From a virus, in the IMG/VR virus record IMGVR_UViG_3300042397_000091, positions 1-41,682 of that record: DNA of 41,682 nt; one strand, written 5' to 3'. The translations under genes and the position numbers were made by a program. Under the pieces are notes generated by a model. It searched no databases. It was not told the DNA's origin and saw nothing but the letters and a program-made list of their open reading frames with translations. The stretch's first letter is position 1; each line of letters starts with the position of its first letter. Shown one piece after another: positions 5,234-37,601 of this stretch.

Positions 5234-5242
5234 TGGTAGAAT
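5234..5242 (+). promoter_or_regulatory. Extended -10 promoter TGGTAGAAT
   Basis: TAGAAT (5237-5242, one mismatch to TATAAT) is preceded by TGG. It lies 15 bases before the ATG at 5258, with AGGAG at 5248-5252 between. Confidence 0.55.
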
Positions 5243-5257
5243 GGACTAGGAGAATAA

Positions 5258-18641: not shown

Positions 18642-21600
18642 ATGGCTGATATTCAGTCCAATATTAATGTTAACATTAATACGTCTGAAGCCCTAGCAAG
18701 TATTAGGACTCTGCAACGTCAGATATCGGCCTTCTATGAATCTATGGCACGTTCAGGTGCTGCAGCCAGTGCTGCAGCATCTAACATGCAGAACAACTTA
18801 ATAAACACTATCAACCAAACAGGCAAATTCTCTGCCTCAATTAAAACTATAGCAAGCACCACAGAAGCCTTTACGACTTCGCTTGAAAAGAACAAACTGT
18901 CAATGGGACAGTACTTCAAGTTTGCTGGTGGTGCCTCAAAAACTTTCGGTAAGTTCTTTAAAACCGAAATGGATACCATCGACAAGGTAGCCAGAGAACG
19001 TGTAAAGACCCTACAAACCCAATACATCAAATTGGGACGTGATGCTAGCGGTGCATTAAAGTCTATTGCAATTAGACCACTAACGCTAGACATGAAAGAT
19101 CTGGGAACTCAAACAGCAATTGCTGCCCAGAAACAACAACTTATGAACCAACTGCTAAAGCAGGGTTCTACAAATCTACTAAACTTCGGTAAGAATACCC
19201 AGTGGGCTGGTCGCCAGTTGATGGTTGGTTTCACCATTCCGTTGGCAATGGTGGGTACCGCTGCTGCTAAAACATTTATGAAGATGGAAGAGCAGGCCAT
19301 CAAGTTTAAGCGTGTATATGGCGACTCCATGACACCAGGAGCAGAAACAGATGCAATGGTCAAGCAGATTCGGGAACTTGCAACAGAGTTTACCAAGTAT
19401 GGTGTTGCTGCAGAAAAGACTATGGAACTTGCTGCTACGGCTGCTGCTGCTGGTAAGCAAGGATTGGAACTAACTGCACAGGTTAGAGAAGCAAACCGTC
19501 TAGCAGTTCTTGGTCAGGTAGAGCAGCAAGAGGCCCTTAGTACCACTATTTCTATTACAAACGCTTTTGGTGTTGCTGCTTCGGACCTTGCAAAAAAGAT
19601 TGACTTCCTAAACGCAGTAGAAAACCAAACCGTAACATCCATTGAAGACCTAACAATTGCAGTACCAAAGGCTGGTCCTGTTGTCAAGCAACTCGGTGGT
19701 GACGTAGAAGACCTAGCATTCTTCCTAACAGCAATGAAGGAAGGTGGAATTAACGCATCAGAAGGTGCTAACGCACTTAAGTCTGGTTTGGCAGCACTTA
19801 TTAACCCAACAGGAAAAGCAGCAGATATGCTTGCCAGTTTTGGAATTAACGTTAAGGGAATCGTAGAGGCTAACAAGGGAGACGTTAAGGGCCTAGTTGT
19901 AGACTTTGCAAAAGCCCTAGACACACTTGACCCACTAAGCAGAGCAAGAGCCATTGAACAACTATTTGGAAAGTTCCAGTTCTCACGTCTGTCAACACTA
20001 TTCCAAAACGTAATTGCAGAGGGAACTCAGGCATCACGTGTTCTTGAACTAACTGGAAGAAGTGCTTCAGACCTAGCAGCACTATCATCTAAAGAACTTG
20101 GAACCGTTGCTGCTTCATCAATGTTTAAATTCCAAAAAGCAGTAGAAGAACTAAAGATGGCTTTGGCCCCTATTGGAGAAATCTTCCTAAAACTTATAAC
20201 CCCACTGCTTGAGTTTGGATCAAAGGTTCTTGAAAACTTTAACAAACTTGACTCTGGAGCAAAAAACTTTATTGTTGGATTAATTGGCGTTGTTGGTGGC
20301 CTTGGCCCAGTTCTTATTATGACATTCGGTCTTCTTGCCAACGGTATTGCTAACATCATCAAGGGGTTCATGCTTGTTAGAAATATATTTACTAAATCTG
20401 GAGATTCGTCAAAGTACCTCGGAGATCAAACAGAATACATGACCCAACAACAGTTGGAGGCAGCAGGTGTTGCTGCATCTCTTGAACAGGTACACCAAAG
20501 ACTAGAGCAAAGATTTACATCAGAAGCAATAGCAGTAGATAAACTTACACAAGCATTACAACGTGCTAATAATGCAAACCTAACTTATATGGGTAGAAAT
20601 ACAGGGGCTGCTGGAGCAAAGCCAAAGAAGTATGCAAAGGGCGTTGTGTCTGTTCCTGGTCCAAAGGGTGCTGGAGATATTGTTCCTGCAATGCTCTCCC
20701 CAGGCGAAGCAGTAATTCCATCAAAACAAGCAGCAAAATATGCTGCACTAATTCAGGGCATTGTTGCAGACAACCTTCCAGGATATGAATTTAGTAACGT
20801 CGATACTTCAGATGCTAACAGGCCTAGCCAAGCAAGAAGGGCAAAATCTGGTGGAGGTCAAAGCCTAGTAATTCGTGGAGGTGCAGATCAGGCACACTTT
20901 GATACAAACGAAAACATGTCCATGACTATACGAGAGATTGAGGCTATGGCGGAAAGCATGGGTAGGGAACTATCAAGTGCTGCTAGAAGAATGTTCGAAA
21001 GACTTGCAGCCGAATCTGGACAAGGCCTAGACACAGTCATTAGGGTTTGGAGCGATAAGGTAATTATGTTGGAGGGAGAACTTCACAAGTTATTCACTTC
21101 AAATGCAGGAGAAGACAAAGGCCCAGTACCAGTTTCTGCAGTCAAGAGAGTTTTGTCAGAACAAGGTGCAGGAACTTATGCAAAAACAAGAGACACTCTG
21201 ATCAGCCAAGGAGTTTCTGAATCAGATGCAAACGAGCAAATAGGCTTAATTGAAAAGGAAGTCTCAAGACGTTTAGATGCTCTCGGGGATGAAGCAGTAA
21301 TAACTTCACAAGAGTTTAATGGATTTGTTGAAAGTGCTCACAAAGCGGTTGGAGAACTAACTAGAAAACTTGGTGAAGCAGAAAGCGATTTGGAACGAGC
21401 ATATGCTACCATGTCAGAGATTAGAACTTTTCAAGGAAAAGATTCAAAAGGAAAAGTAAATAGATTAGATATCTTTGCTAACGAACCAGGATACCAAAAT
21501 ACAAACGTAACAGCAAAAACAAGAGAATCTGCCAACAAATTATCTGATGGAAATATTCTTCGAAATAGAGGAATGAAAATTACTCAGGATATTGAGGATG

Positions 21601-24600
21601 CTGTTGGAAAATCTGAAAAAGAGATTCTAGAGGCTTGGGGTCGGATTCCATCAAGAATGCAAGACGAACTTGCAAGCATAAGAAGTAATGCAAAAGGTTT
21701 TGCTGATAGATTCCAAGAAATTCTTAAAACGCTGGGAATATCAATCAACACATCGTTACAGACTGGACTATCTGCCATACCTTCACAGGCTGGTGCAAAC
21801 GTTACCCTTGGCGGTGTAGGGCAGGGCCTGGATGAAGCAATTCAGAGAAACTCTCCTCCAAAAGAAGCAATTAAAATTGGTAGAGATTATGGCTTTGCTC
21901 TAAATGGAGCATTAAGAGAACTTATTCCAAAGGTCAGGGTAGCAGGAGAGGCATTTGGAGTAGCAGCAACTACAGGAATGACAACTGTTACCCCTGCTAT
22001 GAGACAGCATCTAATAGATCATGCTGGAAGAATCCTAAGACCATATCTTGACGCACAAGGAAGACTAGTACCAATAGCAAAGCAGAAAATTGAAATTCTT
22101 GACAGAGAAGCGATTGCTGCTAAGAAAGCAGCAGATGCCGAAAACCTAAGACTACTTGCAATGCAGAGAAACACAAACATGTCGCTTATTGCAGCAGGAG
22201 TGCCACAATCCCTGATCTCAGATGGACCTGGCAACAAAGACAACTCAGGTAATAATCAAGACAATACTCCAGGCACAGATAAAACAAATACCAAACTAAA
22301 TAGATTTAACAATAGCCTAAGAACTGGCTCATTCATGCTAACATCTCTAGCAGCAGCAGGAACAATGTCTGGTGGAGTTATTGGAGAAATGTCTACAAAA
22401 GTTATGCAATTCTCTGGAATTATTTTTGTTGCCAGCACATTAATGGATCTTTTGGTTGCAGCACAACAAAGACAAATACTTGCTCAAATAGCACACACTA
22501 AAGCAATAGAGGCAGGAACCATAGCAGCAGGAACACAAATGAAAACTGGATTTTTGACCACACTGAGCAACTTCTTAATGTTTAGTAGTGGCAAGGCTAA
22601 GGGAGGAAAGTTCCTAACAGAGTTAGCATCTAAAACTGTGCCAGTTACTGGTGCTTTTGCAAAAGCAGGCGGTGGCCTAAAGGGCTTTATTGCTGTAATT
22701 AAAAATGCTGCTATAAATGTTGGAAAATTTGTTTCTGTTGGACTTAGGTTTATTCCTGTTATTGGTTATATCATAGCAGCAGTTGGTGCCTTTATACTTA
22801 TAACAAATCTTGTTCGTGATGCAAAAGAACGTGAGCGTCTTGCAACAGAGGGTGTGTCCGACGCTATGATCAGCACAACAGAAGAGTTAAACTCAATTGC
22901 TGAAGTACTTGGAAAACAAGAAATAAAAAGTTCAGTAGATAGAATTGGAATTGGACCAGCATCAGAAGAACAGATTGGTGTAATTGACAAACTTAGGGGA
23001 AGTCAAGAATTTAAAGACAGATACAAAGCAGACATTGACGCAATGAGGACAATGTCTCAAAGAGAACTTCAGTCATATCAAAACACATTGGCAATTAGTT
23101 TACAGGCTACTAATCAATACACGAAAGAAGAAATTGAAGGAGTTATAAAAGCCTTACAACTAGAAGCAGGTAGAACAGATGTTAAACTAAATTTTGCAGC
23201 AATTGATATTACTTCAAAAGATCCAGCAATCTTCCAAAGAAGTCTGGATAAATTTGCATCAAATGCAAAGGCTTCTCAGTTAAGTTCTCTAGATGAAACT
23301 CAGTCACAAGAAGCAGAAAATGTTGCTATTGCTGGATACTATCAAACCTTTGACTCTGTTAATACTGCACTTGCAACTGGAGCAATAGGTCTAAAAGACT
23401 ACACAACAAAAATGGATGCCCTAAAGAAGTCCCTGACAGACCTAGGACAGGCAACAGAAACAACTGTTGTTCAAGGAATGATGAACAGTTTTACGGAAGC
23501 ATTGAAAAAGACTCAACCAGAATTAGCAGAAATGGCCAGCAAAGTCAAGGGTGCCAGCGGTCAATTGTTTGTAATGGATGCTCTAACTTCTGGAGCAATT
23601 ACAGACATATCACAACTTGCAGAAGTAATTAGAGCACTAAACACACTTGCTCTTGGAGAAATGAGTGTTGATGCTGACACCTGGGCTGCAGCAAATAGAG
23701 TTATTGAAGGAACTAAAAAAACTATTGCAGAGGCTACAAAAGCAACAGCAGCATATAAAGATGCTCAAGAAACAAAGGGTAGTGGTGAAAAATCAATATT
23801 CCAACAGGCAACAGAAAGTTTGTACGATAACGTAAAAGCAATCAAAGAATCAACAAAAGCATATAGTCTATTGTCCAAAGCAGGTTTGTCGGCATCGGAT
23901 GCCTTTAAAATTGCTAAAGATCCAATACTTGCAGCAGCACTAGCAACAACAAAAGTTGGAACTGCAAAATGGAAAGAACTAATTGATCGCATACAAGAAT
24001 TTTTGGCTATTACAAAAACTAGTGGTTTGTCACAAAAAATATCAGAACTTTTTGGAGAAAACCAAAAACTACAAAATATGGAAAAACTTTCAAGGTATCT
24101 TCAGCAAACAGGGCTTGACGCAGAACAACTACAAGAAGTCCTAAATGACCCAGAGTTGGCAGATCAACTTTTGTATGCTACTGGAGAAGGCAAAAAAGGA
24201 TTTGACCAGATCAAAAAAACTGTTGGCTTTATTATAAAAAATAAAGAAATAAAAATATCTCTATTGCCAATAACAGAACAGTTTAAAGAAAAAATGAGCA
24301 AAGTGACAGAAGCCTTTAATGCAAAGAAAAATGTTTTAGACATACAGTTTAGAATTGACACCAGATCAAGCCAAGATATTGTCAGGAAGGCACAAGCAGA
24401 TATTAATGCACTAAACTTCCAAGCGGATGACTACGAGGCAGGCCTTACAAGACTTGAAGATGGCGAAGAGGCTATTAATGAAAAATACGATAATCGTATT
24501 GAGGCACTAGACAAGGTGATTGCTGCAAACGATCGCATTGCAAACCAGAATAAAGAAGAACTAAATATCTTCCAGATGGTTGCCAGAGGAGACATTGCAG

Positions 24601-27600
24601 GTGCTGCAGCAGGCATTGCACAATTGCAACAACAAAAAGCCAAGGATGCTCTTGAAGCAAAGAAAGAGTCTTTGCAGGCTCAAAGAACAAATGAACTAGA
24701 GTCACTAACTGCCGAGGTAGTTGTTGATGGACAAAAGGTTCGAATGACTCGTAATCAAATTGAAGAAAACTTAAAGAACATTAAGCAACAAATCTTTAAC
24801 ATTGAGGAAAACACTCTAGAACCAGCCCAAAGACAAATTGAAAAAGCACAAGAAAAATTAGATGCAGACAATGCGTCACTAACAGTACTTGAACTCACAG
24901 AAGATGAATGGCTTAAAATTGAAGCAAATATAGACCTTGCAACAGTGTCAACAGTGGCATACGTAAAAAAACTACAAGAAGCACTTGACATTGCAAAACA
25001 AATTCCAGGAGCCCTTGACGGAACTTCCGCAAAGGGTGGAGACATTGTTGGCCAACAAGATCCAGTTTTAGAGACAGACTTTGGAAACAATGCAAAAATT
25101 AAACCGCAACCTAAGCCTGGTGGCGGTGGGCCTGGTATGCCACCTCCACCTGTTACAGAAGCAGAAAAAGATGAGGTTGCAGCAAATAGAGGATCGACAG
25201 AACTAATATGGGGAAAGGGAGCATCCTATTCACAGGTATCCTCCTACCAGAATGATCTTGCCAAGGTTAGAAGATGGGAATCAGGCGACAAATCATGGAT
25301 GAGCGAAGACAACTATAAAGAGTCTAAGAAAAAAGTCAAAGACTTTGAAATGGAATATGGCAAAAGAGATGTTGTTACTGGAGAATTTTGGTCATCACCA
25401 AGACTAAAACAAACATTACTTGATAAAAAGTTGTCAGGTACACAATGGGGAGTACCGTATGTTCCTCCAAATCCGTTTGCAGTAGGCGGTAAAGTAAAGG
25501 GCCCTGGTACTGGAACGAGCGACTCTATTCCAGCACTACTATCTAATGGAGAATATGTAATTAGAGCAAATGCTGTTAGGGCTCTTGGTACAGATACCCT
25601 GGACAAGATGAACTATGCTGATAAGAACAGATTTGCTGATGGTGGCTCTGTAGGTAGACAAGAGGCTGCTATGGCAGCAAGAGGCGGAGCAAAGCCAAAG
25701 AGCAACCCAATTGCAGACATTGCAAAGGCAATTTTCTTCGCACCTCTTGACATGGCAAAAGACTTTAACAGGTCAATAGGGAATGTTCTTACTGGTAAGG
25801 GTGATGGTCTAGACTACCTAAGTCTAGCGTCTGCTCTGCCAGCAGGTAGAATAACAAGTTCTGCATCAAAAATTCTTAAATCATTATCTACTAAAAAGGC
25901 ACCACTGGGAGTTGGCGTTAAAGAAATATCTGGAGTAGAACCCCTACTAAACCCAAATGATAGTCTTGTAAAATCACTTGTAACTGGTAATCTGCTACAC
26001 GGATCAAAAGCCCAGACAGCAAAAGAGTTTGCCATTAAGACATCTGGTGGATCTAAAGAAAACTGGTTTGGAGCAAATTTCTTTACAACTGGAAGCGAAG
26101 AGTTGGCAAATTCCTATGGTGCTGCTATTTACAGAATGCAAATGCCACTTTCTCAAGCACAGAGTTTAAAGATTCTAGACCTATACCCTGGTGCAAAGCC
26201 AATCGAGCAACAGTTTCCTGGGCTTGTGGACATTATCAAATCAACTGGTGTAAATTTAAGCAGAGTAGAAGGGCTTAAAGATATTGCTCTAGCGACTAGG
26301 TCAAAAGCAGGGGCAAAGTTTATTAATAATCCAAAAAGACATATGGCAATAGCAGATGCCATTAAGTCGTCACCAGAATTAAAGAATATATTAACTAAAA
26401 AATTCGGTATTAATGCTATAAGGCATCAATCTGGGCACAACGTTGGTATGGAACAAACTTTTTCTGAAGTTTTTGCTTTCTTTAATCCAAAAAATATAAA
26501 AGCAAAATATACTGGCAACATTGAGGCAGAAGAAGCACAGATTGCAGCCGAGGCTGCCCTAGTTCAAAAATGGCTGGATCAAGCAAGATCTGCAAGGAAA
26601 AAAGCCAAGGGAGGTCTTGTTCGTTACGCAGATGGTGGATTTGTTGATAGACAAGATACCGCTATGGCTAACAGGGGCAAAAAGTCAAACCCACTAATGG
26701 ATACCCTCAAGTCAATATTCTTTGCACCTCTTGATATGGCTAAAGAGTTTAACAACTCAATAGGTAATGTACTTACTGGCAAGGGTCAAGGCGGAGACTT
26801 CCTAAATGTAGCATCTGCATTGCCAATAGGCAAGGGGGCCAGCCTTCTTGGAAAAGGATTTGGTGCAGTTAAAAGCCTTATAAAAAACAGACCAGGTTCT
26901 ATTGAGTCTATGCTAAATCGTTCTGTAATCGCTACAAGAATGCCTCACGACACACTTTTGCAAATGCTAAGAACTGGAGATACGAAATACCGTACCGCTT
27001 TTGAAACAGGAACTGGAGCAGACTTTATAACTCAAACAGGTCACTTGGCAGGCAAGCCAGATCCATATAACAAACGCATGAGACATGCAATGGAAGAGTA
27101 TGCCTTTGCAATTGACTACAAGAAAAATACCCTTGAGCAAAGACCAACATATGGATTAATGGCAACTGTTGGTCCAATAAACAAAGCACTAAACGCAATT
27201 TCTGGCGGTAAGTATGCAAAGAGATTTAATGAACTTACAAACCCAATGAACACAAAATTAGATCTATATGGGGACATCTCGTTAATCTCTAATAAAAAGG
27301 TTCCAAAGCGTTCACAATTTTATGCTGGAGATCTTAGAAATGCGTACTATCAAAATGACGCACACTTCATGTATAGGAAAACCCAAGGAATAAACTTCCC
27401 ACCAATGCGTGGGGCAAGCCAAGCAGAAATTGCTGGAAATCCTAGTGGCTTTTTAGCCGATAAAGTTAAGCCATTAAATATAGGCGATTCGGTTCAGTTT
27501 GCACCATATATTGAGGCATATACAAGAGGCGGATTTGATCTAAGCGAAATTTCTAAAATTTTGGTTAGCAATCCAAACATTCTTAAAACATTGCCACAAG

Positions 27601-30230
27601 AATTAAAAAAGAGTGGATTAGATATTCCAGTTAAACTATACCCTGGAATAAGATCAAAAGAAATTCTTTTTAAGACTCTAGACTTCCTGGCTGATATAGA
27701 AGACAAGGTTAGAGGAAAGAACACACTCAAGTTAAATAGTCAGGATATGCCTAAGTTTGCAGATGGCGGACTTGTTGATAGACGTGATGCTGCAATGGCT
27801 GCAAGAAATCCTAACGCTGCCAGAGACAAACTGTTTAAGAAGGGCGGTATTCAGGGATTTGAGGCTGGAATCCAGGGGATGCTATCAGACTTTGGAAAAC
27901 TTGATCCAGTAAAAAACTTTGCAAATTTCCTAACAGATAAAGGCAATGCCTTAGCATTTGAAACAAGAAAAACTATGGCCTTCCTATCTACGCCAGTTGA
28001 AATTCTTGGAGGAAAAGCCAAATCATTTGCAACCATTGCAAGTCAAATATCTAAGGGAAATATTCCTGGAGCAATAGGAACAGCACTTAAATCTGGACTG
28101 GGTATTGATACCATTGAGTCTATCGGAAATGCATATTCTGGAGTTTTGGATCCATCAAAACAAAAAGCAACAATGTTTGAGCAGGCTGGTCAAACGGTAA
28201 TTAGTAACAAACTATTTGGAGCAGGGAACCCAGAATCAGACGCACTTGCTAGAGTTATTGCAGGCTCTCTAAACCTTGCTGGAGACCCACTATCTTATTT
28301 GGGTGTTGGAGCAGCAGCCAAGGGAATTAAACTTTCAGCATCTGCTGCTACCTCAGCAGCAAAAATTGGACAGATTGGCAACGTTGTAAAAAATGTAGGC
28401 AAGGCAGCAGGATATACACCAGGATTGCTCGGCCTACCAAATGCAGCAGATGTTCAGAACATAGCCTCATTGCTAAATAAGGGAAAGATTTCAGGTGGTG
28501 TGGGTAGCACAGCAAAGGCTGAAGACACTTCTTGGGCAGACTTTGACCCATTTGATGATTCATCTGTGGTCCCAACAACAGTGCCTACAATTAGTTTAGG
28601 TACATCAAGTCCACTAGATAACGTATTCACATCAGAACCAGTTAGAAAAGTAGTCGATACTGATGCTAATACATCTAACTATGAAGAACTTGCAATGAGC
28701 AAGGTAAGAAACCTATTTCACCCACTTAAAAATCCAGAAGGCTTGTCTTACACCTATAAGCCAATAGATCTTATGTTTGGAGACCCAGGCCACATAATTG
28801 AAGCAAAAACACCAACTGGAGAATCCGTTGGAAAACTAGAGTGGAAGGCTGACACTGGCGAAATTGACATGGTGTTTGTTGATAGAGACTTCCAGCGTAA
28901 AGGTGTTGCTACAGACATGTGGCACATGGCAAATATAGAGGCTTTGAAAAATCCAAACATTTTGCATCCACTACACTCTCCAGAATTATCTGCAACAGGA
29001 AGAGCATGGAGAGATTCTGTTGGCGGAGGCATGCTTGAAGACACAATCAATGCAAAGTTCAAGTTTAATAGAGAAAACTTAGTTAATCCACGAGAAGAAT
29101 ATCTAAAAACTATATCTAATAATGCAAACATAGCCGAAAAACTCAAAACCCCTGGAAAGATTATGGACATGTTTGGAATGAAGGGCAATCTTTCTGCATC
29201 TGGATTAACACCAGACGAACTTTACACTATAGAAGAATATATTGCACGTCCAGGAAGACTCCACTTTAGTACATTCAAAAACGTAAGAAAAACTGTTGAC
29301 GACATAATTTCTAAAAATAACCTAACAATTCCAAAGGGTTCAAACCTGGTTCGTGTTACTGGAAACAGAGATGCAGCACAGTTAGCCGAAATGAAGGCTG
29401 GAGACAGGTTTACCCTGGATCAGTTCTGGTCTGTAACTTCTGGAGAAGACACAGACTTTTTGGAAGGCATGGCGACTGCATCTAAAGACACAGGCGGAAG
29501 ATATTCTCTAATTGAAATGATCAATGGAAAGCCTGTTGCTAAAAAGTTCCCACTTATTAAGTTTAACGTTAGATCAGATGTTCCTGGAATTTGGAATATG
29601 AACTCTTTGCTAGAAGAGCCTGCCTCAGACGTGATTGATGGACTGCTTGCAAGAGGACAGTCTATGGAAATAGAGTCTATTACTACTGGCATTGACGGAC
29701 AAAAAATATATAACATTAACTTGGGATCTATTGCAGAAAATTCATCAATTCCAGAACTTGGGCTAAACGAATTTAGCACTAAAAAATGGTACGAACAAAT
29801 GCGTAATGATCCAAGCCTAGATCCAAAATATGCTAAAGATTGGACCGAGCAGGGCTTCATCAAAGAAATGAATAAAATTCGTATGGACGAGATGTCGCCA
29901 ATTTATCGTGCCAAGGGTGGTATTGTTGCTCCTAAGTACTTTGCCAATGGCGGAATGGTTATGCCTAAGTATTTTGCTAAGGGTGGAGATGTTGTTCCTG
30001 CTATGCTTACCCCAGGAGAATTTGTAATGACCAAACACGCTGTAGATAACTATGGGGTAGACAACCTGAGAGCCATCAATAGTGGTGCAGCACCAGGCAA
30101 CTCAGTGTATAATGGATATAACATTAATGTCAATGTCAGGTCTAACTCAAACCCAGACCAAATTGCAAATGCAGTTATGACACAGATTAGACAGGTTAAT
30201 GCACAACAAGTAAGAGGTAGTAAGTTCTAA
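18642..30230 (+). CDS. Giant tape measure protein with toxin-like cassettes
   Basis: 3862 aa. Residues ~1-170 are helical. Residues ~170-560 fit the phage tape measure core (LLNFGKNTQWAGRQLMVGF, many Ala/Gly helices). Hydrophobic stretches lie at ~541-575, 1235-1273 and 1367-1391. Glycine-rich IPA-x-LS-x-GE-x-V motifs occur at ~663-705, 2279-2325 and near the C-terminus (VVPAMLTPGEFVM). Residues ~1950-2225 are long coiled coil. Residues 2331-3700 hold successive cassettes of enzyme-like domains, annotated separately. The protein sets tail length and is expected to be ejected toward the host cell at infection (family knowledge). Arginine is mostly AGA/AGG. The start ATG follows GAAGGTG, and the stop overlaps the next start (TAATG). 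Confidence 0.92.
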   Translation: MADIQSNINVNINTSEALASIRTLQRQISAFYESMARSGAAASAAASNMQNNLINTINQTGKFSASIKTIASTTEAFTTSLEKNKLSMGQYFKFAGGASKTFGKFFKTEMDTIDKVARERVKTLQTQYIKLGRDASGALKSIAIRPLTLDMKDLGTQTAIAAQKQQLMNQLLKQGSTNLLNFGKNTQWAGRQLMVGFTIPLAMVGTAAAKTFMKMEEQAIKFKRVYGDSMTPGAETDAMVKQIRELATEFTKYGVAAEKTMELAATAAAAGKQGLELTAQVREANRLAVLGQVEQQEALSTTISITNAFGVAASDLAKKIDFLNAVENQTVTSIEDLTIAVPKAGPVVKQLGGDVEDLAFFLTAMKEGGINASEGANALKSGLAALINPTGKAADMLASFGINVKGIVEANKGDVKGLVVDFAKALDTLDPLSRARAIEQLFGKFQFSRLSTLFQNVIAEGTQASRVLELTGRSASDLAALSSKELGTVAASSMFKFQKAVEELKMALAPIGEIFLKLITPLLEFGSKVLENFNKLDSGAKNFIVGLIGVVGGLGPVLIMTFGLLANGIANIIKGFMLVRNIFTKSGDSSKYLGDQTEYMTQQQLEAAGVAASLEQVHQRLEQRFTSEAIAVDKLTQALQRANNANLTYMGRNTGAAGAKPKKYAKGVVSVPGPKGAGDIVPAMLSPGEAVIPSKQAAKYAALIQGIVADNLPGYEFSNVDTSDANRPSQARRAKSGGGQSLVIRGGADQAHFDTNENMSMTIREIEAMAESMGRELSSAARRMFERLAAESGQGLDTVIRVWSDKVIMLEGELHKLFTSNAGEDKGPVPVSAVKRVLSEQGAGTYAKTRDTLISQGVSESDANEQIGLIEKEVSRRLDALGDEAVITSQEFNGFVESAHKAVGELTRKLGEAESDLERAYATMSEIRTFQGKDSKGKVNRLDIFANEPGYQNTNVTAKTRESANKLSDGNILRNRGMKITQDIEDAVGKSEKEILEAWGRIPSRMQDELASIRSNAKGFADRFQEILKTLGISINTSLQTGLSAIPSQAGANVTLGGVGQGLDEAIQRNSPPKEAIKIGRDYGFALNGALRELIPKVRVAGEAFGVAATTGMTTVTPAMRQHLIDHAGRILRPYLDAQGRLVPIAKQKIEILDREAIAAKKAADAENLRLLAMQRNTNMSLIAAGVPQSLISDGPGNKDNSGNNQDNTPGTDKTNTKLNRFNNSLRTGSFMLTSLAAAGTMSGGVIGEMSTKVMQFSGIIFVASTLMDLLVAAQQRQILAQIAHTKAIEAGTIAAGTQMKTGFLTTLSNFLMFSSGKAKGGKFLTELASKTVPVTGAFAKAGGGLKGFIAVIKNAAINVGKFVSVGLRFIPVIGYIIAAVGAFILITNLVRDAKERERLATEGVSDAMISTTEELNSIAEVLGKQEIKSSVDRIGIGPASEEQIGVIDKLRGSQEFKDRYKADIDAMRTMSQRELQSYQNTLAISLQATNQYTKEEIEGVIKALQLEAGRTDVKLNFAAIDITSKDPAIFQRSLDKFASNAKASQLSSLDETQSQEAENVAIAGYYQTFDSVNTALATGAIGLKDYTTKMDALKKSLTDLGQATETTVVQGMMNSFTEALKKTQPELAEMASKVKGASGQLFVMDALTSGAITDISQLAEVIRALNTLALGEMSVDADTWAAANRVIEGTKKTIAEATKATAAYKDAQETKGSGEKSIFQQATESLYDNVKAIKESTKAYSLLSKAGLSASDAFKIAKDPILAAALATTKVGTAKWKELIDRIQEFLAITKTSGLSQKISELFGENQKLQNMEKLSRYLQQTGLDAEQLQEVLNDPELADQLLYATGEGKKGFDQIKKTVGFIIKNKEIKISLLPITEQFKEKMSKVTEAFNAKKNVLDIQFRIDTRSSQDIVRKAQADINALNFQADDYEAGLTRLEDGEEAINEKYDNRIEALDKVIAANDRIANQNKEELNIFQMVARGDIAGAAAGIAQLQQQKAKDALEAKKESLQAQRTNELESLTAEVVVDGQKVRMTRNQIEENLKNIKQQIFNIEENTLEPAQRQIEKAQEKLDADNASLTVLELTEDEWLKIEANIDLATVSTVAYVKKLQEALDIAKQIPGALDGTSAKGGDIVGQQDPVLETDFGNNAKIKPQPKPGGGGPGMPPPPVTEAEKDEVAANRGSTELIWGKGASYSQVSSYQNDLAKVRRWESGDKSWMSEDNYKESKKKVKDFEMEYGKRDVVTGEFWSSPRLKQTLLDKKLSGTQWGVPYVPPNPFAVGGKVKGPGTGTSDSIPALLSNGEYVIRANAVRALGTDTLDKMNYADKNRFADGGSVGRQEAAMAARGGAKPKSNPIADIAKAIFFAPLDMAKDFNRSIGNVLTGKGDGLDYLSLASALPAGRITSSASKILKSLSTKKAPLGVGVKEISGVEPLLNPNDSLVKSLVTGNLLHGSKAQTAKEFAIKTSGGSKENWFGANFFTTGSEELANSYGAAIYRMQMPLSQAQSLKILDLYPGAKPIEQQFPGLVDIIKSTGVNLSRVEGLKDIALATRSKAGAKFINNPKRHMAIADAIKSSPELKNILTKKFGINAIRHQSGHNVGMEQTFSEVFAFFNPKNIKAKYTGNIEAEEAQIAAEAALVQKWLDQARSARKKAKGGLVRYADGGFVDRQDTAMANRGKKSNPLMDTLKSIFFAPLDMAKEFNNSIGNVLTGKGQGGDFLNVASALPIGKGASLLGKGFGAVKSLIKNRPGSIESMLNRSVIATRMPHDTLLQMLRTGDTKYRTAFETGTGADFITQTGHLAGKPDPYNKRMRHAMEEYAFAIDYKKNTLEQRPTYGLMATVGPINKALNAISGGKYAKRFNELTNPMNTKLDLYGDISLISNKKVPKRSQFYAGDLRNAYYQNDAHFMYRKTQGINFPPMRGASQAEIAGNPSGFLADKVKPLNIGDSVQFAPYIEAYTRGGFDLSEISKILVSNPNILKTLPQELKKSGLDIPVKLYPGIRSKEILFKTLDFLADIEDKVRGKNTLKLNSQDMPKFADGGLVDRRDAAMAARNPNAARDKLFKKGGIQGFEAGIQGMLSDFGKLDPVKNFANFLTDKGNALAFETRKTMAFLSTPVEILGGKAKSFATIASQISKGNIPGAIGTALKSGLGIDTIESIGNAYSGVLDPSKQKATMFEQAGQTVISNKLFGAGNPESDALARVIAGSLNLAGDPLSYLGVGAAAKGIKLSASAATSAAKIGQIGNVVKNVGKAAGYTPGLLGLPNAADVQNIASLLNKGKISGGVGSTAKAEDTSWADFDPFDDSSVVPTTVPTISLGTSSPLDNVFTSEPVRKVVDTDANTSNYEELAMSKVRNLFHPLKNPEGLSYTYKPIDLMFGDPGHIIEAKTPTGESVGKLEWKADTGEIDMVFVDRDFQRKGVATDMWHMANIEALKNPNILHPLHSPELSATGRAWRDSVGGGMLEDTINAKFKFNRENLVNPREEYLKTISNNANIAEKLKTPGKIMDMFGMKGNLSASGLTPDELYTIEEYIARPGRLHFSTFKNVRKTVDDIISKNNLTIPKGSNLVRVTGNRDAAQLAEMKAGDRFTLDQFWSVTSGEDTDFLEGMATASKDTGGRYSLIEMINGKPVAKKFPLIKFNVRSDVPGIWNMNSLLEEPASDVIDGLLARGQSMEIESITTGIDGQKIYNINLGSIAENSSIPELGLNEFSTKKWYEQMRNDPSLDPKYAKDWTEQGFIKEMNKIRMDEMSPIYRAKGGIVAPKYFANGGMVMPKYFAKGGDVVPAMLTPGEFVMTKHAVDNYGVDNLRAINSGAAPGNSVYNGYNINVNVRSNSNPDQIANAVMTQIRQVNAQQVRGSKF
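25632..25850 (+). repeat. Tape-measure linker cassette A
   Basis: From residue 2331: FADGGSVGRQEAAMAARGG, then SNPIADIAKAIFFAPLDMAK, then NRSIGNVLTGKGDGLDYLSL and ASALPAGR. About two thirds of ~70 residues are identical to cassette B. Both copies precede a different domain. The LTGKG...SALP.G pattern resembles pretoxin linkers of polymorphic toxins (inference). Confidence 0.85.
25929..26525 (+). other. H-F-E type ADP-ribosyltransferase-like domain in tape measure
   Basis: Residues ~2430-2628. GNLLHGSKAQ gives a His at 2453. WFGANFFTTGSEELANSYG gives the G-x-x-F-F-T pattern at 2476-2482. FSEVFAFFNPKNIK gives Glu 2609 followed by a final strand. This order (LHG, GxxFFT...A..YG, then E-V-x-x-F-x-P-x-x-I) is that of toxin-type ADP-ribosyltransferases of the H-Y-[EDQ] class, with Phe where Tyr is usual. 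The match is by eye and activity is unproven. Confidence 0.55.
26625..26838 (+). repeat. Tape-measure linker cassette B
   Basis: From residue 2662: YADGGFVDRQDTAMANRGKK, then SNPLMDTLKSIFFAPLDMAK, then NNSIGNVLTGKGQGGDFLNV and ASALPIGK. It is a near copy of cassette A, 993 bases downstream, so everything between is one module length. Confidence 0.85.
26898..27600 (+). other. Unassigned enzyme-like domain (RPTYG ... YIEA) in tape measure
   Basis: Residues ~2753-2986. Ordered signatures are RTAFETGTGA, RPTYGLM (2834-2840), LYGDISLISNKKVPKRSQF, YAGDLRNA and PYIEAYTRGGFDLSEI with Glu 2958. The pattern recalls ADP-ribosyltransferase-like or DUF3626-like domains carried at the ends of some phage and toxin proteins, from memory only. 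It lies between linkers B and C. Confidence 0.45.
27756..28440 (+). other. Linker C and hydrophobic pretoxin-like segment
   Basis: From residue 3039: FADGGLVDRRDAAMAARNP repeats only the first ~19 residues of linkers A and B. A different ~200-residue Gly/Ala-rich segment follows (KKGGIQGFEAGIQGMLSDFG, NIPGAIGTALKSGLG, SLNLAGDPLSYLGVGAAAKG). It joins the linker to the GNAT-like domain and could interact with membrane or act as a pretoxin spacer; this is inference. Confidence 0.6.
28674..29030 (+). other. GNAT acetyltransferase-like domain in tape measure
   Basis: Residues ~3345-3463. VGKLEWKADTGEIDMVFVDRDF leads into QRKGVATDM (Q3418 to A3423), which fits the GNAT acetyl-CoA pyrophosphate loop Q/R-x-x-G-x-G/A. 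It is followed by an amphipathic helix and by HSPELSATGRAWRDSVGG, an ending I recall from GNAT-like domains in phage proteins. Substrate unknown. Confidence 0.65.
29154..29736 (+). other. R-S-E type ADP-ribosyltransferase-like domain in tape measure
   Basis: Residues ~3505-3698. NLVRVTGN supplies Arg 3571. FTLDQFWSVTSGE supplies the S-x-T-S strand (3597-3600) in place of S-T-S. The third motif is unclear: MEIES gives E3676-x-E3678, but alignment of LLARGQSMEIESI with the usual PRGTxFxVxSV places the catalytic Glu at Asp 3666. The fold call is fair, catalytic competence is uncertain. Confidence 0.6.
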
Positions 30231-30889
30231 TGTCTTCAGCAGCGTACATGTCGGGTAGAAAGAAATACCAAAGACCACAAGCAATAATGTTTGCGAACAA
30301 TCCAGGAACATTGGTCAATGGAGTATACATTCCAGATGGCTATGAGGTTGGAACAAACCCATCTGAAATCGAAGACTCATCTCTTGCTAATAGTTTTCTA
30401 ATTCTTTCTGATAATAACAGAGGAGAACTATCATTTTCAAACAATCGTATTGAAAAGCGTGAGCGTATGATCAATGGTCGTATGCGTTCATATCACATTG
30501 CAGACAAACTAAACTTGTCAGTGCAGTGGAACATGCTTCCATCTAGGGCCTATGGGGCAAACGCAAACTTTGATACCGAGACTGGAAAGTCTCCATATGT
30601 TGGCAACGCTGGAAGACCAAACTCGGCAGATCTTGAATTCACCACAGATGGTGGGGCAGGCGGTGTAGAGTTGCTAGACTGGTATAATAATAATACTGGC
30701 TCATTCTGGGTTTATCTTGCCTACGACAACTATAAAAACTTTGAAGGTGTAGAAGGAACCTACGGTCGCCTAGGACAATATAACGAAATTATTGAAGTAT
30801 TCTTTTCAGCCTTTGACTACTCTGTGCAAAAGCGTGGAGGAACTAATCACGATTTCTGGAACATCTCTTTATCTCTGGAAGAGGTATAA
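30230..30889 (+). CDS. Distal tail protein candidate (Dit-like)
   Basis: 219 aa, first gene after the tape measure, where Dit normally sits. The beta-rich body contains NRGELSFSNNRIEKRERMINGRMRSYHIADK, SVQWNMLPSRAYGANANF, and an ending FSAFDYSVQKRGGTNHDFWNISLSLEEV typical of a first tail-tip ring protein that contacts the tube. The assignment is mainly positional. It is coupled by TAATG overlaps at both ends. Confidence 0.6.
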   Translation: MSSAAYMSGRKKYQRPQAIMFANNPGTLVNGVYIPDGYEVGTNPSEIEDSSLANSFLILSDNNRGELSFSNNRIEKRERMINGRMRSYHIADKLNLSVQWNMLPSRAYGANANFDTETGKSPYVGNAGRPNSADLEFTTDGGAGGVELLDWYNNNTGSFWVYLAYDNYKNFEGVEGTYGRLGQYNEIIEVFFSAFDYSVQKRGGTNHDFWNISLSLEEV

Positions 30890-33800
30890 TGTTTTACGAC
30901 AATCAACTACAAAACCATCTAGAGACTTCATCATCGCTAAAGATTGATTCGGCAGTCATTGCTGAATGGAATATGAACTTTGCAGAAAACATTGACAAGG
31001 TTGGTAACTATCGTTTTCGACCAGGGTATGAAACCCCATCATCAGTCAAGTACGGCATTATAAATAACACCTATGACCCACAGGACAATGGATACTTCTA
31101 CACAAATGCTACAGACGCAGACGTAATGATTGACGGTGGCTATGAAGACGAAAACACCAAGGGCACACCGTTTAAGACAGTTAAAGAAAAAGAGAAGATG
31201 CTGTTCTCCCTTGAAGACTGCTTTGGAAGATTCAGACCAAGATCTGGCATCAACAAACTAAGATTCTTCAGAAACACGTATACCCATACATCAAATATCA
31301 ATATGGCTAGAAGGCCAAGGTATTACATGGCTCACAAGAATGACAAGTTCAAATACTGGTGCTCATTCAGAACAGCATCCTTAATTGGAGAACTACCTGC
31401 TGGACAAGAGATTCCATCAACCTCATATGAGCGAGGCATTGCCAATAGAACAGTAAATGGCAGGCACTACATTGATGACGCTGTACCATTCGTGGTTTAT
31501 AAAGATAGTGTGCCAGCCAACAGACTTGTTATAAAGATGCAAACACACGTTGGCGATATTGATCTAGGCTCATTCACCAACAGTTCTGGTAACTATGACG
31601 ATCCATTCTATGGAGAAGAAAACAAAAGAACTCCAGCAAGATGGAGCATTCAGTATCTAGAAGATAAGAGTTGGACAACTGCAATATCGTTTAACGAAAA
31701 TACCACAAGACCAGACGGCACACCGCTAATTGGACCAGACGGATACTTAGAATTGCAATACGGCCTGATCGTGCCAGAACAGTTGAGAGGCATCTTTCTA
31801 AACGTAGGCTCATACACCTCAGAAACATTGTTGCCAACAAGGTCAACAAATGGCTATGCCTATTTTGTTAAAAGTGATTCTGGAACTCGTGGTAAGTTCT
31901 ATGTTTGGTTAGATAACTTAGATGGCTACTACGAATTTGTTCCTCAATATGGATGGGGACTATATGAACAAGAGGTTGGAACTAACTCAAGTTTTGTAAC
32001 AGACTTTACTAACCCAGATTACTTTATAGAAAGTGGCAAGACTGTATTCCGAGAGTTTGACTATATCAATGGAGTAAGACTTGTCGTAGAAACAATGAAC
32101 AAAGAAGATGCAACGTTTGACCTTATTGAAATATCTCCAAGACTTGCTGCAGACATTACCGATAGAACAACTAGTTTTAACATTAAGAAACCAGCATCAG
32201 ACCTTGGCGTAAGCGGTATGCCAGTAGGAGACCTTCTTGTATCTACAGGAAACATAGAGATCTTTGACTTTGATGATGCCTTTAATGAGAATAGTTCTAC
32301 CAGCATTATTGGTAAATACTCAAACCACAACCTGCAAATTAAGTTTTACGAGCAGGTAAAGGATGTTCCACAAATTGACGGTAACGGAGACCTTGTTGGT
32401 TTTGCAAGTTACTTTATTCCAATGAAGACTATGTATGCTGATGGATTCCCATCTGTGAACTCAGGGGATAGAACTGTAAAAATTGAATTAAGAGATATGT
32501 TTATAAAGTTTGAATCAACCATAGCACCAGAGGTTGTTATTAGAAATGCTTCTGTAAGTTATGCAATCTCTTTACTTCTTGACAACATTGGATTCTCTAA
32601 CTATGTCTTTAAGCGAAATGCTAACGAAAAAGAAGTTACCATTCCATTCTTTTTTATTCCACCAAACACAAGCGTGGCAGAAGTTCTAAAGTCTATTGCC
32701 ATCTCAACACAGACTGCAATGTTCTTTGATGAATACAACAACTTTGTAATGATGAGCAAAAACTACATTATGCCAACAACAGAAGAAAGATCTACGGACA
32801 TGACCCTGATCGGCACAAACGACCAAGAAAAAAGTGGCATCGTAAAGAACAAGTTGATTAACGGAAGAACTAAGTTGGCAAATATTATTCAACTGGCCTC
32901 AGAAGAAAACAAAATTTATAACAATGGAAACATTACCTATACAACTAGGTATATTCAAAAAGAAAGAAACTTTTTAACCAATCCAAGCATTATGGAAAAA
33001 GATTATTCTTGGAAATACAAGCCAGTACTTCTATGGCAGGTAACCCCAGAAAACTCTAGGATATCTTACAATGACGAACTCGCAACTGAATCAAGTTATG
33101 CCCTAGCAGCAGTAGCCCTCAAGAGCAATCTTTCAGCAGAAGTTCCAACGGTAGTTAATAACGTGTTGCAAAACAACGTAATGGACCTAGGTGAATCTGT
33201 TTCCAACCTATTAAGATACTCTGGATATTTTTATGCAAATGGTGAAATTATTCGATACGATGCAATTGAATATTCAATTACAGGAAATGAAACAGGGGAC
33301 GCATCAAGGTCTCCATCATATAACGTTTGGATTACAGATGTTCAGGACTATCAAAGAGAGTTTTCAAAATTAAAGTTTAATGGCAAAATGTATCCTACAG
33401 GACTGGTAAGAATCTATGCAGAACCATTCTATGAAACAGATGCAAGTAATCCGTCAATCGTAAAACTTAAAAATGGACCAGTTGCCAAGCATGGTCGCTC
33501 TCAATTTGGAACTGGAGTCAGAGACAGTTCTGGAAATTTTGTTCCTGTAAGTCACCCAGCAGGTCTTGATCCATACTGGACAAATAGTTCAACTATGGCT
33601 GGTTGCGAAATGCAGTCACAGTATATGTTTACAGAAGCAAACTTTACTGGATCTACAATTGCTGGAGTTGCTGGTAAAGCAACCAATGGAGATAAGTTAG
33701 CCCAAAGTGCAGATAGAAAGGGAATACTTAAAAACTACCAAGGAATGTCAAAAAACCAGGTTGAAGAAAATTTATACGAACAGAACATTCCAGGATCTGG

Positions 33801-35379
33801 ATTAGTTCAGGCCTCGGCTTTTGTATTAAATTTGAAAAACTTTTCTTCTAAGGAAAATACAAACAACATTAAGCCAATTAACTTTATTTCTTATGCATAC
33901 AAAACTCTAACAAATAAGTTTACTCATTTTGGAACTAGGATTAGAATTGCTGGAACTATTGAAAATAGCACAGATAAGATTCAGACAGCAGTAGGGTCAT
34001 CTACCTACTATGATGTTCTTAATGGATCTAAACAAGAAGCCCTAAGCGTTTCTGGTGGTTCTGGTGGACTTGGAATTCTTGTAAATCCAGCAACAAACAG
34101 CGGATACTATTTTGAGTTGGTTGCTCTTTCACAAGAAAACTCACTAAAAGATGTAGATAATGAGCCAATATCTTTGTCGGACATGTTCTTCTATAAGATT
34201 AAAAAAGACTCTGCAACTGACAACGCAATTCCAGTTGTTTTATGGGAGGGCGTTGGAAACATTATTATTGGAGACGATAACTTTGTAAATGCTGGAAGAG
34301 TAACAGAAACAAGTGTTCTGCCAGACTATGACATTGCAGTAGAATATAAACAACTTGGGTCAGCACTTAGGTTTTATCTATACGTAAATGGCAGATTGCT
34401 GACTACCATTGACGATCCAAACCCAGAAACAGATGAAACTGGAAACATTAAACTATACAATAATGTTGCCATGTTTACCCGAGGCACAGCAAAATGTGTA
34501 TTCCAAAACCTATATGCATTAGGAAACAACTATAGTGACAATACCATGCAAAAGATTGATACTCCAGTAAATAGCGTATTTGGAGATACAGAAATTAACG
34601 TAAGCGAAGCACTAAGCAAATACGCTCTAAGTGGTTTTGTTCAATCGGTCTATCTATCTAGCATTAACCCAAATACGCCACCAAAAGAAAATATTTACTT
34701 TGAAGAGTTTGGAACTATTATGAGAGAGGCAGCCTACTTCGACATTAAGTATGAGAAGGCATATCCATCATTTAGGTCACTAATTCTTCCTACGTTTAAT
34801 CGTGTTAAGAGTTATGTCGCTTCAAACTTTACTCCAACAGCATATGGGGCAGAGTTTATTATTTTTAATGCAACGGATAGCACGATTAGCCTAGCAGACG
34901 ATTCTGAAAACTATCTTCAGATTTCTGGCATAACATTTACTCAGGCCACACAAAATCAACTAAGTGTTGATCAATACTTTAACAAAAAGGGCGAGTTGTC
35001 AAACCCATCATACGTCACATCAACTACGGTGGAGTCTCCATTAAAGATTAAAGAGTCATTTAATGATATTAAATTTAGTAGGCAAAAATATGGAATGCTA
35101 GAGTTTTCTCTAGATGCTCCGTACATTCAGTCACACGATGATGCATATGACCTTATGGGCTGGCTACTTTCAAAAGTAACAACTCCAAGAAAAGCAATAG
35201 GTATCGATTTGTTTGGAATGCCAACGGTTCAACTAGGAGATATTGTTGAGGTAGACTATACCAACAACGATAGTAATGAAGTAGTTTCAAGTTCTTCAAG
35301 ATTTGTTGTTTACAACATTGAGTATTCTAAAAATGCACAAGGACCGTCAATGACGGTATACCTAAGTGAGGTAATATAA
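30889..35379 (+). CDS. Large tail-tip protein (Tal / baseplate hub-like)
   Basis: 1496 aa. Residues ~390-560 (FDLIEISPRLAADITDRTTSF, KPASDLGVSGMPVGDLLVSTG, DDAFNENSSTSIIGKY) and ~590-640 (VSYAISLLLDNIGFSNYVFK, PPNTSVAEVLKSIAIST) match hub-type minor tail proteins that I recall from actinobacteriophages. Residues ~1020-1220 look like a concanavalin/LamG domain, with ALRFYLYVNGRLLTTIDD and a preceding strand array. The C-terminal ~100 residues (LMGWLLSKVTTPRKAIGIDLFGMP, DIVEVDYTNN) form another beta domain typical of tail-tip hubs. No peptidoglycan hydrolase motif is seen. TAATG overlaps join it to both neighbours. Confidence 0.78.
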   Translation: MFYDNQLQNHLETSSSLKIDSAVIAEWNMNFAENIDKVGNYRFRPGYETPSSVKYGIINNTYDPQDNGYFYTNATDADVMIDGGYEDENTKGTPFKTVKEKEKMLFSLEDCFGRFRPRSGINKLRFFRNTYTHTSNINMARRPRYYMAHKNDKFKYWCSFRTASLIGELPAGQEIPSTSYERGIANRTVNGRHYIDDAVPFVVYKDSVPANRLVIKMQTHVGDIDLGSFTNSSGNYDDPFYGEENKRTPARWSIQYLEDKSWTTAISFNENTTRPDGTPLIGPDGYLELQYGLIVPEQLRGIFLNVGSYTSETLLPTRSTNGYAYFVKSDSGTRGKFYVWLDNLDGYYEFVPQYGWGLYEQEVGTNSSFVTDFTNPDYFIESGKTVFREFDYINGVRLVVETMNKEDATFDLIEISPRLAADITDRTTSFNIKKPASDLGVSGMPVGDLLVSTGNIEIFDFDDAFNENSSTSIIGKYSNHNLQIKFYEQVKDVPQIDGNGDLVGFASYFIPMKTMYADGFPSVNSGDRTVKIELRDMFIKFESTIAPEVVIRNASVSYAISLLLDNIGFSNYVFKRNANEKEVTIPFFFIPPNTSVAEVLKSIAISTQTAMFFDEYNNFVMMSKNYIMPTTEERSTDMTLIGTNDQEKSGIVKNKLINGRTKLANIIQLASEENKIYNNGNITYTTRYIQKERNFLTNPSIMEKDYSWKYKPVLLWQVTPENSRISYNDELATESSYALAAVALKSNLSAEVPTVVNNVLQNNVMDLGESVSNLLRYSGYFYANGEIIRYDAIEYSITGNETGDASRSPSYNVWITDVQDYQREFSKLKFNGKMYPTGLVRIYAEPFYETDASNPSIVKLKNGPVAKHGRSQFGTGVRDSSGNFVPVSHPAGLDPYWTNSSTMAGCEMQSQYMFTEANFTGSTIAGVAGKATNGDKLAQSADRKGILKNYQGMSKNQVEENLYEQNIPGSGLVQASAFVLNLKNFSSKENTNNIKPINFISYAYKTLTNKFTHFGTRIRIAGTIENSTDKIQTAVGSSTYYDVLNGSKQEALSVSGGSGGLGILVNPATNSGYYFELVALSQENSLKDVDNEPISLSDMFFYKIKKDSATDNAIPVVLWEGVGNIIIGDDNFVNAGRVTETSVLPDYDIAVEYKQLGSALRFYLYVNGRLLTTIDDPNPETDETGNIKLYNNVAMFTRGTAKCVFQNLYALGNNYSDNTMQKIDTPVNSVFGDTEINVSEALSKYALSGFVQSVYLSSINPNTPPKENIYFEEFGTIMREAAYFDIKYEKAYPSFRSLILPTFNRVKSYVASNFTPTAYGAEFIIFNATDSTISLADDSENYLQISGITFTQATQNQLSVDQYFNKKGELSNPSYVTSTTVESPLKIKESFNDIKFSRQKYGMLEFSLDAPYIQSHDDAYDLMGWLLSKVTTPRKAIGIDLFGMPTVQLGDIVEVDYTNNDSNEVVSSSSRFVVYNIEYSKNAQGPSMTVYLSEVI

Positions 35380-35972
35380 TGGCGACTAAAAGACCAAAAA
35401 CTCCAGATATTTTTGTGGGAGATTCAGAAGACTGGTCTGGTGGAATTAGGATTCCATCTTTTCAAGATCAAAGACCAATAAAAGCAAAACCAGACCAAGG
35501 GTCTAATCAGCCTAATGTTTCAATTGTTTCTAGTGGCGTAAAGGTAGCAACGCCAGAAACCTATGAACTATATCCAACATCACCAGAAAAAATTGTCGCT
35601 GCACAAATCTTTTTAGAAATGCTTGGCGGTAACGAACTAATTGAGTTATCAAGACACGACCTCATTAATGGTATCAACACCAGATATCAGCCGATCAAAG
35701 ACGCACAAATTATTGCTACTCAGTTTAATGCCTTTAACATTATTCCATTGCAAGACACCCTTCCAAACTACATGGATAACTTCCCTATTAGGCTTGAAGA
35801 AAGGATACCAAACTTTGGATCTGGCGAGAGCAACGTAAATATAGATGCCAATGGTATAATTACTATTGAATTAATTAATCTTAAGCCAGATGAAACGGTA
35901 GAAGTAGAAATCCTCTACCAAGGAAAGATACTTAGTGATACAATATATAGTGATACAGGAGAAAGTTCGTGA
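35379..35972 (+). CDS. Minor tail protein, unknown function
   Basis: 197 aa. The N-terminal ~60 residues are Pro/Gln/Lys-rich and probably extended (ATKRPKTPDIFVGDSEDWSGG...). The middle is helical (SPEKIVAAQIFLEMLGGNELIELSR) and contains the only SRHDLINGI-like segment. The C-terminus is a short beta unit (ANGIITIELINLKPDETVEVE). No family is firmly recognised. Its place within a fully overlapping set of tail-tip genes supports a virion role. Confidence 0.65.
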   Translation: MATKRPKTPDIFVGDSEDWSGGIRIPSFQDQRPIKAKPDQGSNQPNVSIVSSGVKVATPETYELYPTSPEKIVAAQIFLEMLGGNELIELSRHDLINGINTRYQPIKDAQIIATQFNAFNIIPLQDTLPNYMDNFPIRLEERIPNFGSGESNVNIDANGIITIELINLKPDETVEVEILYQGKILSDTIYSDTGESS

Positions 35973-37141: not shown

Positions 37142-37142
37142 T

Positions 37143-37601
37143 ATGGCTGATATTGTCAAGAAGGTCGTTGTAGAAAATGTGCCAAAAATCTATGGTTCTG
37201 GATATACCATAAGGTATAGAATTATTTCAGAAGACCGCAACAGAACATCTCAATGGTCACCAATGCACACATTTGAAAAAGATGTTCCAGTAGATCCGCC
37301 AACATCAGTAGATGGAGAAATTGCTTTTATATCTGAAAGACAGGTATCAGCAACCTGGACAGAAACGAATGCAAACTCAGTTTATGAAATATTTATAAAC
37401 TGGAACGACCAAGTTGACGAAAACCTAGATCTTGTTTGGACATATGCTAGAACTGTATCTTCGCCAACATATACAACCTTAGCACCAGTTGGATCAGAGA
37501 TTGTATCAATTTGGGTACAGCAACCAACCTCAAATCAAGTCCAGGAACCACTTGCATTAATATATACAGAAAGTGCAGAAAATACCTTTACCTCTTCATA
37601 G
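37143..37601 (+). CDS. Fibronectin-III-like minor tail protein
   Basis: 152 aa with AGGAG six bases before ATG. Residues ~15-50 (YTIRYRIISEDRNRTSQWSPM) and 50-110 (PPTSVDGEIAFISERQVSATWTET...) carry the strand order, Trp and Pro positions of fibronectin type III-like domains, common on phage tails as weak glycan or surface binders. There is no signal peptide and no enzyme motif. A promoter for the next gene follows directly. Confidence 0.68.
   Translation: MADIVKKVVVENVPKIYGSGYTIRYRIISEDRNRTSQWSPMHTFEKDVPVDPPTSVDGEIAFISERQVSATWTETNANSVYEIFINWNDQVDENLDLVWTYARTVSSPTYTTLAPVGSEIVSIWVQQPTSNQVQEPLALIYTESAENTFTSS

Follow-up and report, generated by a model that had tools for sequence, protein, structure and literature searches.

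Different enzyme-like cassettes at repeated linkers in the tape measure protein of an uncultured siphovirus

The stretch of DNA considered here, referred to as the window, is the full 41,682 nucleotides of IMG/VR record IMGVR_UViG_3300042397_000091 (positions 1-41,682) from an uncultured bacterial virus. The open reading frame (ORF) at 18642-30230, which like the parts of it described below lies on the plus strand, encodes a siphovirus tape measure protein (TMP) of 3862 aa. The C-terminal part of this protein is a series of modules set behind three copies of a repeated linker. One module has, according to a structural model, the fold of an ADP-ribosyltransferase (ART), another probably carries a GNAT-like domain, and a close relative presents different cassettes at the same linkers. 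With moderate confidence, we propose that the TMP doubles as the carrier of a polyvalent effector payload. The first ~2100 residues would do the usual work of the tail, serving as tail-length template and supplying membrane-active segments, while the cassettes would be active and delivered to the host.

The TMP and its repeated linkers

The identity of the ORF is clear from its core domain, which matches the Pfam family PhageMin_Tail over residues 244-443 (19371-19970; E = 2.4e-26, 93.3 bits against a cut-off of 33.2), and from its best match among the TMP families of PHROGs (phrog_10030, E = 1.1e-95). Tail genes follow downstream; the ORF at 30889-35379, for instance, encodes a minor tail protein (phrog_10359, E = 1.7e-49).

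The three linkers start with FADGGSVGRQEAAMA at residue 2331 (linker A, position 25632), YADGGFVDRQDTAMA at residue 2662 (linker B, position 26625) and FADGGLVDRRDAAMA at residue 3039 (linker C, position 27756), as an initial annotation made from the sequence had it. That annotation also noted further residues common to linkers A and B, and at the DNA level a stretch of 122 nt with 80% identity does extend past the motif. With the shared block included, linker A occupies 25632-25846 and linker B 26625-26830; linker C occupies 27756-27800. When window positions 26000-27000 were compared with their own record by blastn, matches were returned at 25635-25841 (E = 6.3e-29) and 27759-27800 (E = 8.4e-7). 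Given these E-values and the stretch common to A and B, the three copies exceed chance.

The modules are framed by two constant stretches, termed hooks here. Hook 2 (GGKVKGPGTGTSDSIPALLSNGEYVI..., 25479-25628) lies immediately 5' of linker A, and the terminal hook, with the triple GG motif VPAMLTPGEFVM (29910-30176), forms the constant C-terminal end at which identity with relatives resumes. Hook 1 (VPGPKGAGDIVPAMLSPGEAVIP, 20637-20741) is located further upstream and marks the entry of a slot that holds cassettes in related phages.

Different cassettes in a close relative

A metagenomic contig, L004, is 94% identical to the window in DNA over 25328-25848, 26632-27806 and 29945-37241. It matches the window across hook 2 and on into linker A, then switches to linker B within ~30 nt (25737-25767 / 26721-26751), and cassette A is therefore absent at this place. 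L004 keeps module B and departs from the window inside linker C (~27781-27791). An A-type linker comes next in L004, followed by an A-type cassette and other sequence, and the contig rejoins the window at the terminal hook. Both upstream junctions lie inside linkers, which is the pattern that recombination between linkers would leave. The comparison of related TMPs for domains swapped between linkers, as proposed by the initial annotation, found in L004 a case that would fit.

Exchangeable, modular domains including an ART fold are also what would be expected of a strict polymorphic toxin system, in which toxins directed against rival cells or phages are accompanied by matching immunity genes. 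The initial annotation had likened the layout to that of polymorphic toxins, and had described the further residues shared by linkers A and B as pretoxin-like. However, seven linker or module pieces gave zero matches in Pfam at E ≤ 10, pretoxin families included (a divergent pretoxin would escape), and the array is followed by a constant C-terminus. The next gene overlaps the TMP stop codon with no gene between, and the same tail genes, 94% identical, continue for 7.3 kb downstream in L004 despite its different cassettes. No immunity gene was seen beside the cassettes among the downstream genes of the window and L004, both of which are fragments. Since no pretoxin family was matched and no gene next to the array changes with the cassettes between the window and L004, a strict polymorphic toxin system finds no support here, and we consider that explanation highly improbable.

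The array can also be missing altogether. L006 is 91-92% identical over the TMP N-terminus and contains no array; identity resumes at the terminal hook. Among the listed pairs of TMPs (219 pairs in total) with at least 80% N-terminal identity, several diverge immediately past hook 1 (residues ~716-722) and become alike again towards the C-terminus, for example L029 and L040 (94.6% identity over residues 1-718, 85% over the final ~260). Other listed pairs are alike throughout, and much of the TMP middle diverges as well, so the hooks are not the sole borders of variation.

Module B

Cassette B spans residues 2754-2997 (26901-27632). An AlphaFold2 model of residues 2408-3009, which covers modules A and B, was calculated from an alignment of 23 rows. 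While the mean predicted local distance difference test (pLDDT) score was 57.9 for the whole model, the part corresponding to module B (model residues 341-590) had block scores of 69-95, except for one loop at 46 and 56. The fold searches are a good test of the module B region only. A Foldseek search of the PDB returned two matches to module B at E ≤ 0.001, both SopF (best E = 4.5e-5), which we take to be an ART and which one PDB title describes in complex with NAD and ARF1. DarT followed from E = 1.5e-3. VIA-align ranked the same proteins highest: SopF (Z = 11.0, 193 residues, 4.2 Å, 14% sequence identity), DarT (Z = 10.1-9.0) and DarT1 (Z = 7.9). Below these were tRNA 2'-phosphotransferase (Z = 6.4), presumably a relative of the ARTs, and the ART effector CteC (Z = 5.4-5.1), with other folds from Z = 4.5. 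Seven neighbours were found in BFVD at E ≤ 0.001, including a DUF3626 protein of a Nodularia phage, a phage protein labelled "NAT_SF" and a "minor capsid protein". On the strength of this model, module B has an ART fold.

The DUF3626 family recurs at the sequence level. Thirteen module B homologues from related TMPs were aligned, and four of the 13 matched DUF3626 (PF12294) at E ≤ 1 (best E = 1.8e-6); the curated cut-off was passed by none of 16 records (L046 reached 21.1 of the 27 bits). DUF3626 is contained in SopF (PMC6682159). Module B has its fold in common with DUF3626/SopF and DarT ARTs; unlike them, it lies inside a phage TMP, and it is 14% identical to SopF in the structural alignment. 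A PDB search by sequence with module B yielded no credible match.

The final alignment of module B retained 23 of 27 stretches; L090, L100, L017 and L102 were dropped as redundant or partial. Seventeen columns are invariant among these 23 rows, including R2766, R2834, P2835, Y2837, G2838, D2897 and E2958 (the dropped L102 stretch does not contain the RPxYG part). Because module B has an ART fold, E2958 is proposed as the candidate catalytic glutamate.

Another explanation of the array is that it adds only length or padding to the TMP, its cassettes being inert spacers or passengers in decay. The length of the tail region varies widely, strongly different TMP middles are tolerated among the pairs listed, and no active-site residues have been established for A and C, all of which would suit a spacer. 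Module B does not behave in this manner. Between the window and L004, its 305 codons differ by 19 synonymous and 6 nonsynonymous changes, a ratio of nonsynonymous to synonymous rates (dN/dS) of 0.089 that is based on 25 changes in one pair, and its invariant columns extend to the candidate catalytic glutamate. By this comparison module B is under purifying selection, less strict than that on two downstream tail genes (dN/dS of 0.022 and 0.042), and we regard the spacer explanation as distinctly unlikely. The synonymous divergence of module B (0.090) is lower than that of the two tail genes (0.225 and 0.156), which would fit a later exchange of B, one pair being too little to decide.

Modules A and C

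The initial annotation assigned a different enzyme-like domain to each module and proposed structure prediction with fold searches as a check. This expectation is supported for module B by its fold and probably for module C by sequence; for module A the evidence is weak, and neither module A nor the last domain of module C yielded a usable model.

Cassette A (25899-26561) may be ART-like. Its best NCBIfam match is the anti-CRISPR ART AcrIF11 (25992-26198, E = 0.0064), and its best Pfam match is DUF3990 (25992-26126, E = 0.17), which we take to be akin to the ARTs. The likeness to AcrIF11 is limited to 17.4 bits against a cut-off of 50 and to profile positions 3-62 of 142. When each family was searched alone against the record of the window, both alignments started at 25992; AcrIF11 gave E = 6.4e-4 with matches in none of 14 control genomes, and DUF3990 gave E = 3.3e-3 with matches in five of the 14, two of them over the cut-off, both E-values being post hoc. 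The A-type cassette of L004 is 46-54% identical to cassette A, depending on the stretch. It was left out of the final alignment of A and B because it aligned wholly or half onto module B. PDB searches by sequence with cassette A found no credible match. Since the AcrIF11 and DUF3990 matches are weak and the cassette of L004 matches neither, a second ART in module A is only suggested.

Module C appears to be composite. Its first part (27819-28541) has no relative among the fetched TMPs and matches no family. The second part (residues 3348-3498, 28683-29135) matches the Pfam family Acetyltransf_10 and contains the sequence QRKGVA, which presumably corresponds to the Q/RxxGxG/A motif of GNATs. 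Module C thus probably carries a GNAT-like domain. Relatives of this domain are present in L065 and L066, where they are identical to each other, and in L118. It is also matched weakly by 14 phage records, the best of which is a separate gene of 226 residues in Mycobacterium phage Phabba (E = 1e-3). Rhodococcus phage E3 gp70 (L121, 8107-11266) gave a weak GNAT match as well (E = 1e-2); this gene of ~1050 residues is located a little upstream of the portal, is noted as a structural protein and is flagged as a pseudogene in two pieces.

The last domain of module C (residues 3500-3750, 29139-29891) has one relative, in L095, where it sits after a copy of module B. By eye it gave the impression of an ART, and this assignment was discarded: PF03496 matched none of 12 records (five of 14 controls matched, none over the cut-off), no Pfam family matched at E ≤ 10, and the one NCBIfam match was irrelevant (E = 0.089). 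PDB searches by sequence with the GNAT-like and last domains gave no credible match.

Cassettes in the wider family

The modular arrangement behind repeated linkers proposed initially is supported, and the same domain families occur at another TMP position in relatives. Eighty loci, a redundant set with many truncated members, were fetched by the TMP N-terminus. Relatives of module B were found in 17 of the 80 at residues ~723-1012; in the window, L004 and L095, module B is instead part of a C-terminal array. The relatives often lie between hook 1 and a second hook, as in L063, where hooks at residues 685 and 992 flank the module B slot. In a set of 63 loci enriched by a module B search, 18 had module B in this first slot, the only slot count used since the core-2 marker was misplaced in about half of the rows.

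The internal position bears on a further explanation, that the enzyme domains act late in the producing cell, with virion or host proteins as targets. They would simply be part of the TMP chain and might be released from it by cleavage, prior to tail assembly or in its course, without ever being injected. TMPs are late proteins, and in some phages the end of the TMP is removed during assembly. However, C-terminal trimming would not free the internal relatives of module B in loci such as L063, and in the window the constant terminal hook stands downstream of the cassettes. A late role of this kind is unlikely in our judgment.

In the window, 1792 residues follow the last conserved coiled-coil block, compared with a median of 308.5 over 56 distinct TMPs (window included). 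This set includes loci that were added through searches with module B and GNAT, as well as L102 and L064, whose ORFs are short or broken; L004 is outside it because its contig begins after the last coiled-coil block. Pfam scans were made of 61 slot fragments and, after L102 and L064 were dropped, of 54 of the 56 C-terminal fragments, which were also aligned. At E ≤ 0.01, the slot fragments contained a HAD acid phosphatase (2/61, best E = 7e-15), GNAT (2/61, best E = 0.002), DUF3626 (3/61, best E = 5.5e-5) and glycine zippers (3/61); matches at this threshold include chance-like ones in both sets (e.g. HlyE, Skp1 and AF-4). The family counts sum to 22 for the slot and 17 for the C-terminal fragments, and therefore at least 39 of 61 and at least 37 of 54 match no family. 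LysM was present in two of the 54 C-terminal fragments (best E = 2.3e-14), a possible cell-wall-binding cassette in the same region.

Several individual loci illustrate the content of these regions; their kinase-, nucleotidyltransferase-, NADAR- and further ART-like readings were made by eye only. In L066, residues ~700-1690 (locus 3413-6383) comprise several cassettes in the first TMP slot, set off by AxGG motifs. The first block is kinase-like; Pfam identifies a HAD acid phosphatase (E = 1e-10) and a GNAT (E = 0.0034), and a further block looks like an ART. In L118, residues ~720-1370 present the same first block (54% identical) and the same GNAT, with the intervening HAD cassette replaced by one that has a GAHQPFTTAHE motif and looks nucleotidyltransferase-like. 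The enzyme-like cassettes of L118 are in the N-terminal slot, and the linker motif of the window recurs at residues ~3385-3405 (FAIGGMADRRDAAMASRAP) ahead of a hydrophobic C-terminal module. L095 has a NADAR-like cassette ahead of module B (residues ~1750-1965, within locus 5095-5900) that gave no Pfam or NCBIfam match. PDB searches by sequence with two sibling cassettes, that with the GAHQPFTTAHE motif among them, found no credible match.

The TMP as a carrier

In the carrier role proposed here, the cassettes between hook 2 and the terminal hook would comprise a possible ART (A), an ART of the DUF3626/SopF/DarT type (B), and a GNAT-like domain with a further domain (C). The repeated linkers would provide homology for recombination between related phages, by which cassettes could be lost, gained or replaced. 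At infection, the TMP would leave the tail with the DNA and the cassettes would reach the host membrane or cytoplasm, where, ahead of phage gene expression, they might modify nucleic acid or components of transcription or defence.

Precedents exist for parts of this scheme. Labelling placed the λ TMP next to the inner-membrane ManYZ complex while the genome was being injected (PMC13190303). It has long been known that some actinophage TMPs have C-terminal motifs that are potential modulators of host physiology, and an actinobacterial contractile particle packages and ejects TMP-related effectors with diverse, transferable C-terminal domains; moving a domain into another carrier changed the phenotype (PMC13277306). 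These Sle1-type effectors resemble the TMP described here in having a TMP-related coiled-coil carrier that is packaged in a tail-like particle and ejected. In contrast, as described in that text, they belong to non-infectious bacterial particles and have one C-terminal functional domain, whereas the enzyme-like cassettes of the phage TMP are several, and in the family as a whole they occupy two places.

The closest concept would be that of polyvalent proteins, in which several unrelated enzyme domains, ARTs and GNATs included, are joined in one long phage polypeptide of virion context and predicted to be injected (Iyer et al. 2017, PMC5512222; PMC7824862). By its ART fold in B and a GNAT-like domain below the cut-off, the TMP would likewise combine several disparate enzyme domains. 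It differs in that the carrier is a TMP (the main text of PMC5512222 nowhere uses the word "tape"), in that different cassettes at repeated linkers are visible at the DNA level, and in that metallopeptidases, a theme of polyvalent proteins, gave no match in the profile searches. ARTs fused to or packaged as virion components are also described for the MuF-VIP2 fusions of Microbacterium phages (PMC7302621) and for T4 Alt (PMC5512222); these, however, are single ARTs of another class and are associated with the head, not the TMP. Full-text searches of open-licence papers, judged by titles and the starts of abstracts among the matches listed, found no enzyme-cassette array in a phage TMP.

A number of points weigh against the carrier role. 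The passage of folded domains of such size through the tail lumen is an unsolved problem. As the array is missing in L006, it is not needed for tail function, and large C-terminal arrays are rare in the family. The window and L004 are both metagenomic contigs, and chimeric assembly at repeats could imitate the junctions of L004; the presence in L004 of cassette sequence absent from the window counts against this. Concerning the enzymes themselves, the Foldseek TM-scores of module B are modest by target length (SopF 0.40, DarT 0.49) and the window's own module B gives no match to DUF3626. The Acetyltransf_10 match in module C falls below the curated cut-off (E = 2.4e-4, 21.5 against 23.6 bits), and the last domain of C was modelled at a mean pLDDT of 38 from a two-row alignment. 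The classical ART family PF03496 is absent from the 12 records searched. Module A was modelled mostly below a pLDDT of 50 with no aligned relative, its counterpart in L004 matches neither ART profile, and AcrIF11 also matched another record in a frame interrupted by stops (E = 0.0055), a chance-like match that serves as a measure of background. The cassettes are without strong relatives among 50,697 phage records.

A wider proposition, which we hold only tentatively, is that in this phage family the TMP serves as a magazine of injected effectors that is modular and can be reloaded. Two hook-flanked places would receive exchangeable ARTs, acetyltransferases, phosphatases and other domains, and the linkers would let phages trade payloads as hosts change. 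Some cassettes, such as the SopF/DarT-like and AcrIF11-like ARTs, might disable host defences at the very start of infection.

TMPs have hitherto been treated as rulers and membrane conduits. If the carrier role is correct, siphoviruses would have a way of delivering early effectors in addition to proteins packaged in the head, and a link would exist between phage TMPs and the TMP-related effectors found in contractile injection systems of actinobacteria. Variation in the length and C-terminus of TMPs would become a testable question, and such proteins would offer a natural platform for protein delivery.

Host and terminal hook

Scans of genome contigs, in which module B and the TMP N-terminus served as queries, yielded no confirmed relative. 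The N-terminus is ~31% identical to Streptomyces phages (best E = 9e-58), a likeness that hints at an actinobacterial host. We know of no function for the terminal hook region. It is matched by nine PHROGs, five of which are labelled tape measure, and it also matches the TMP of Clavibacter phage CN1A (54% over 56 residues).
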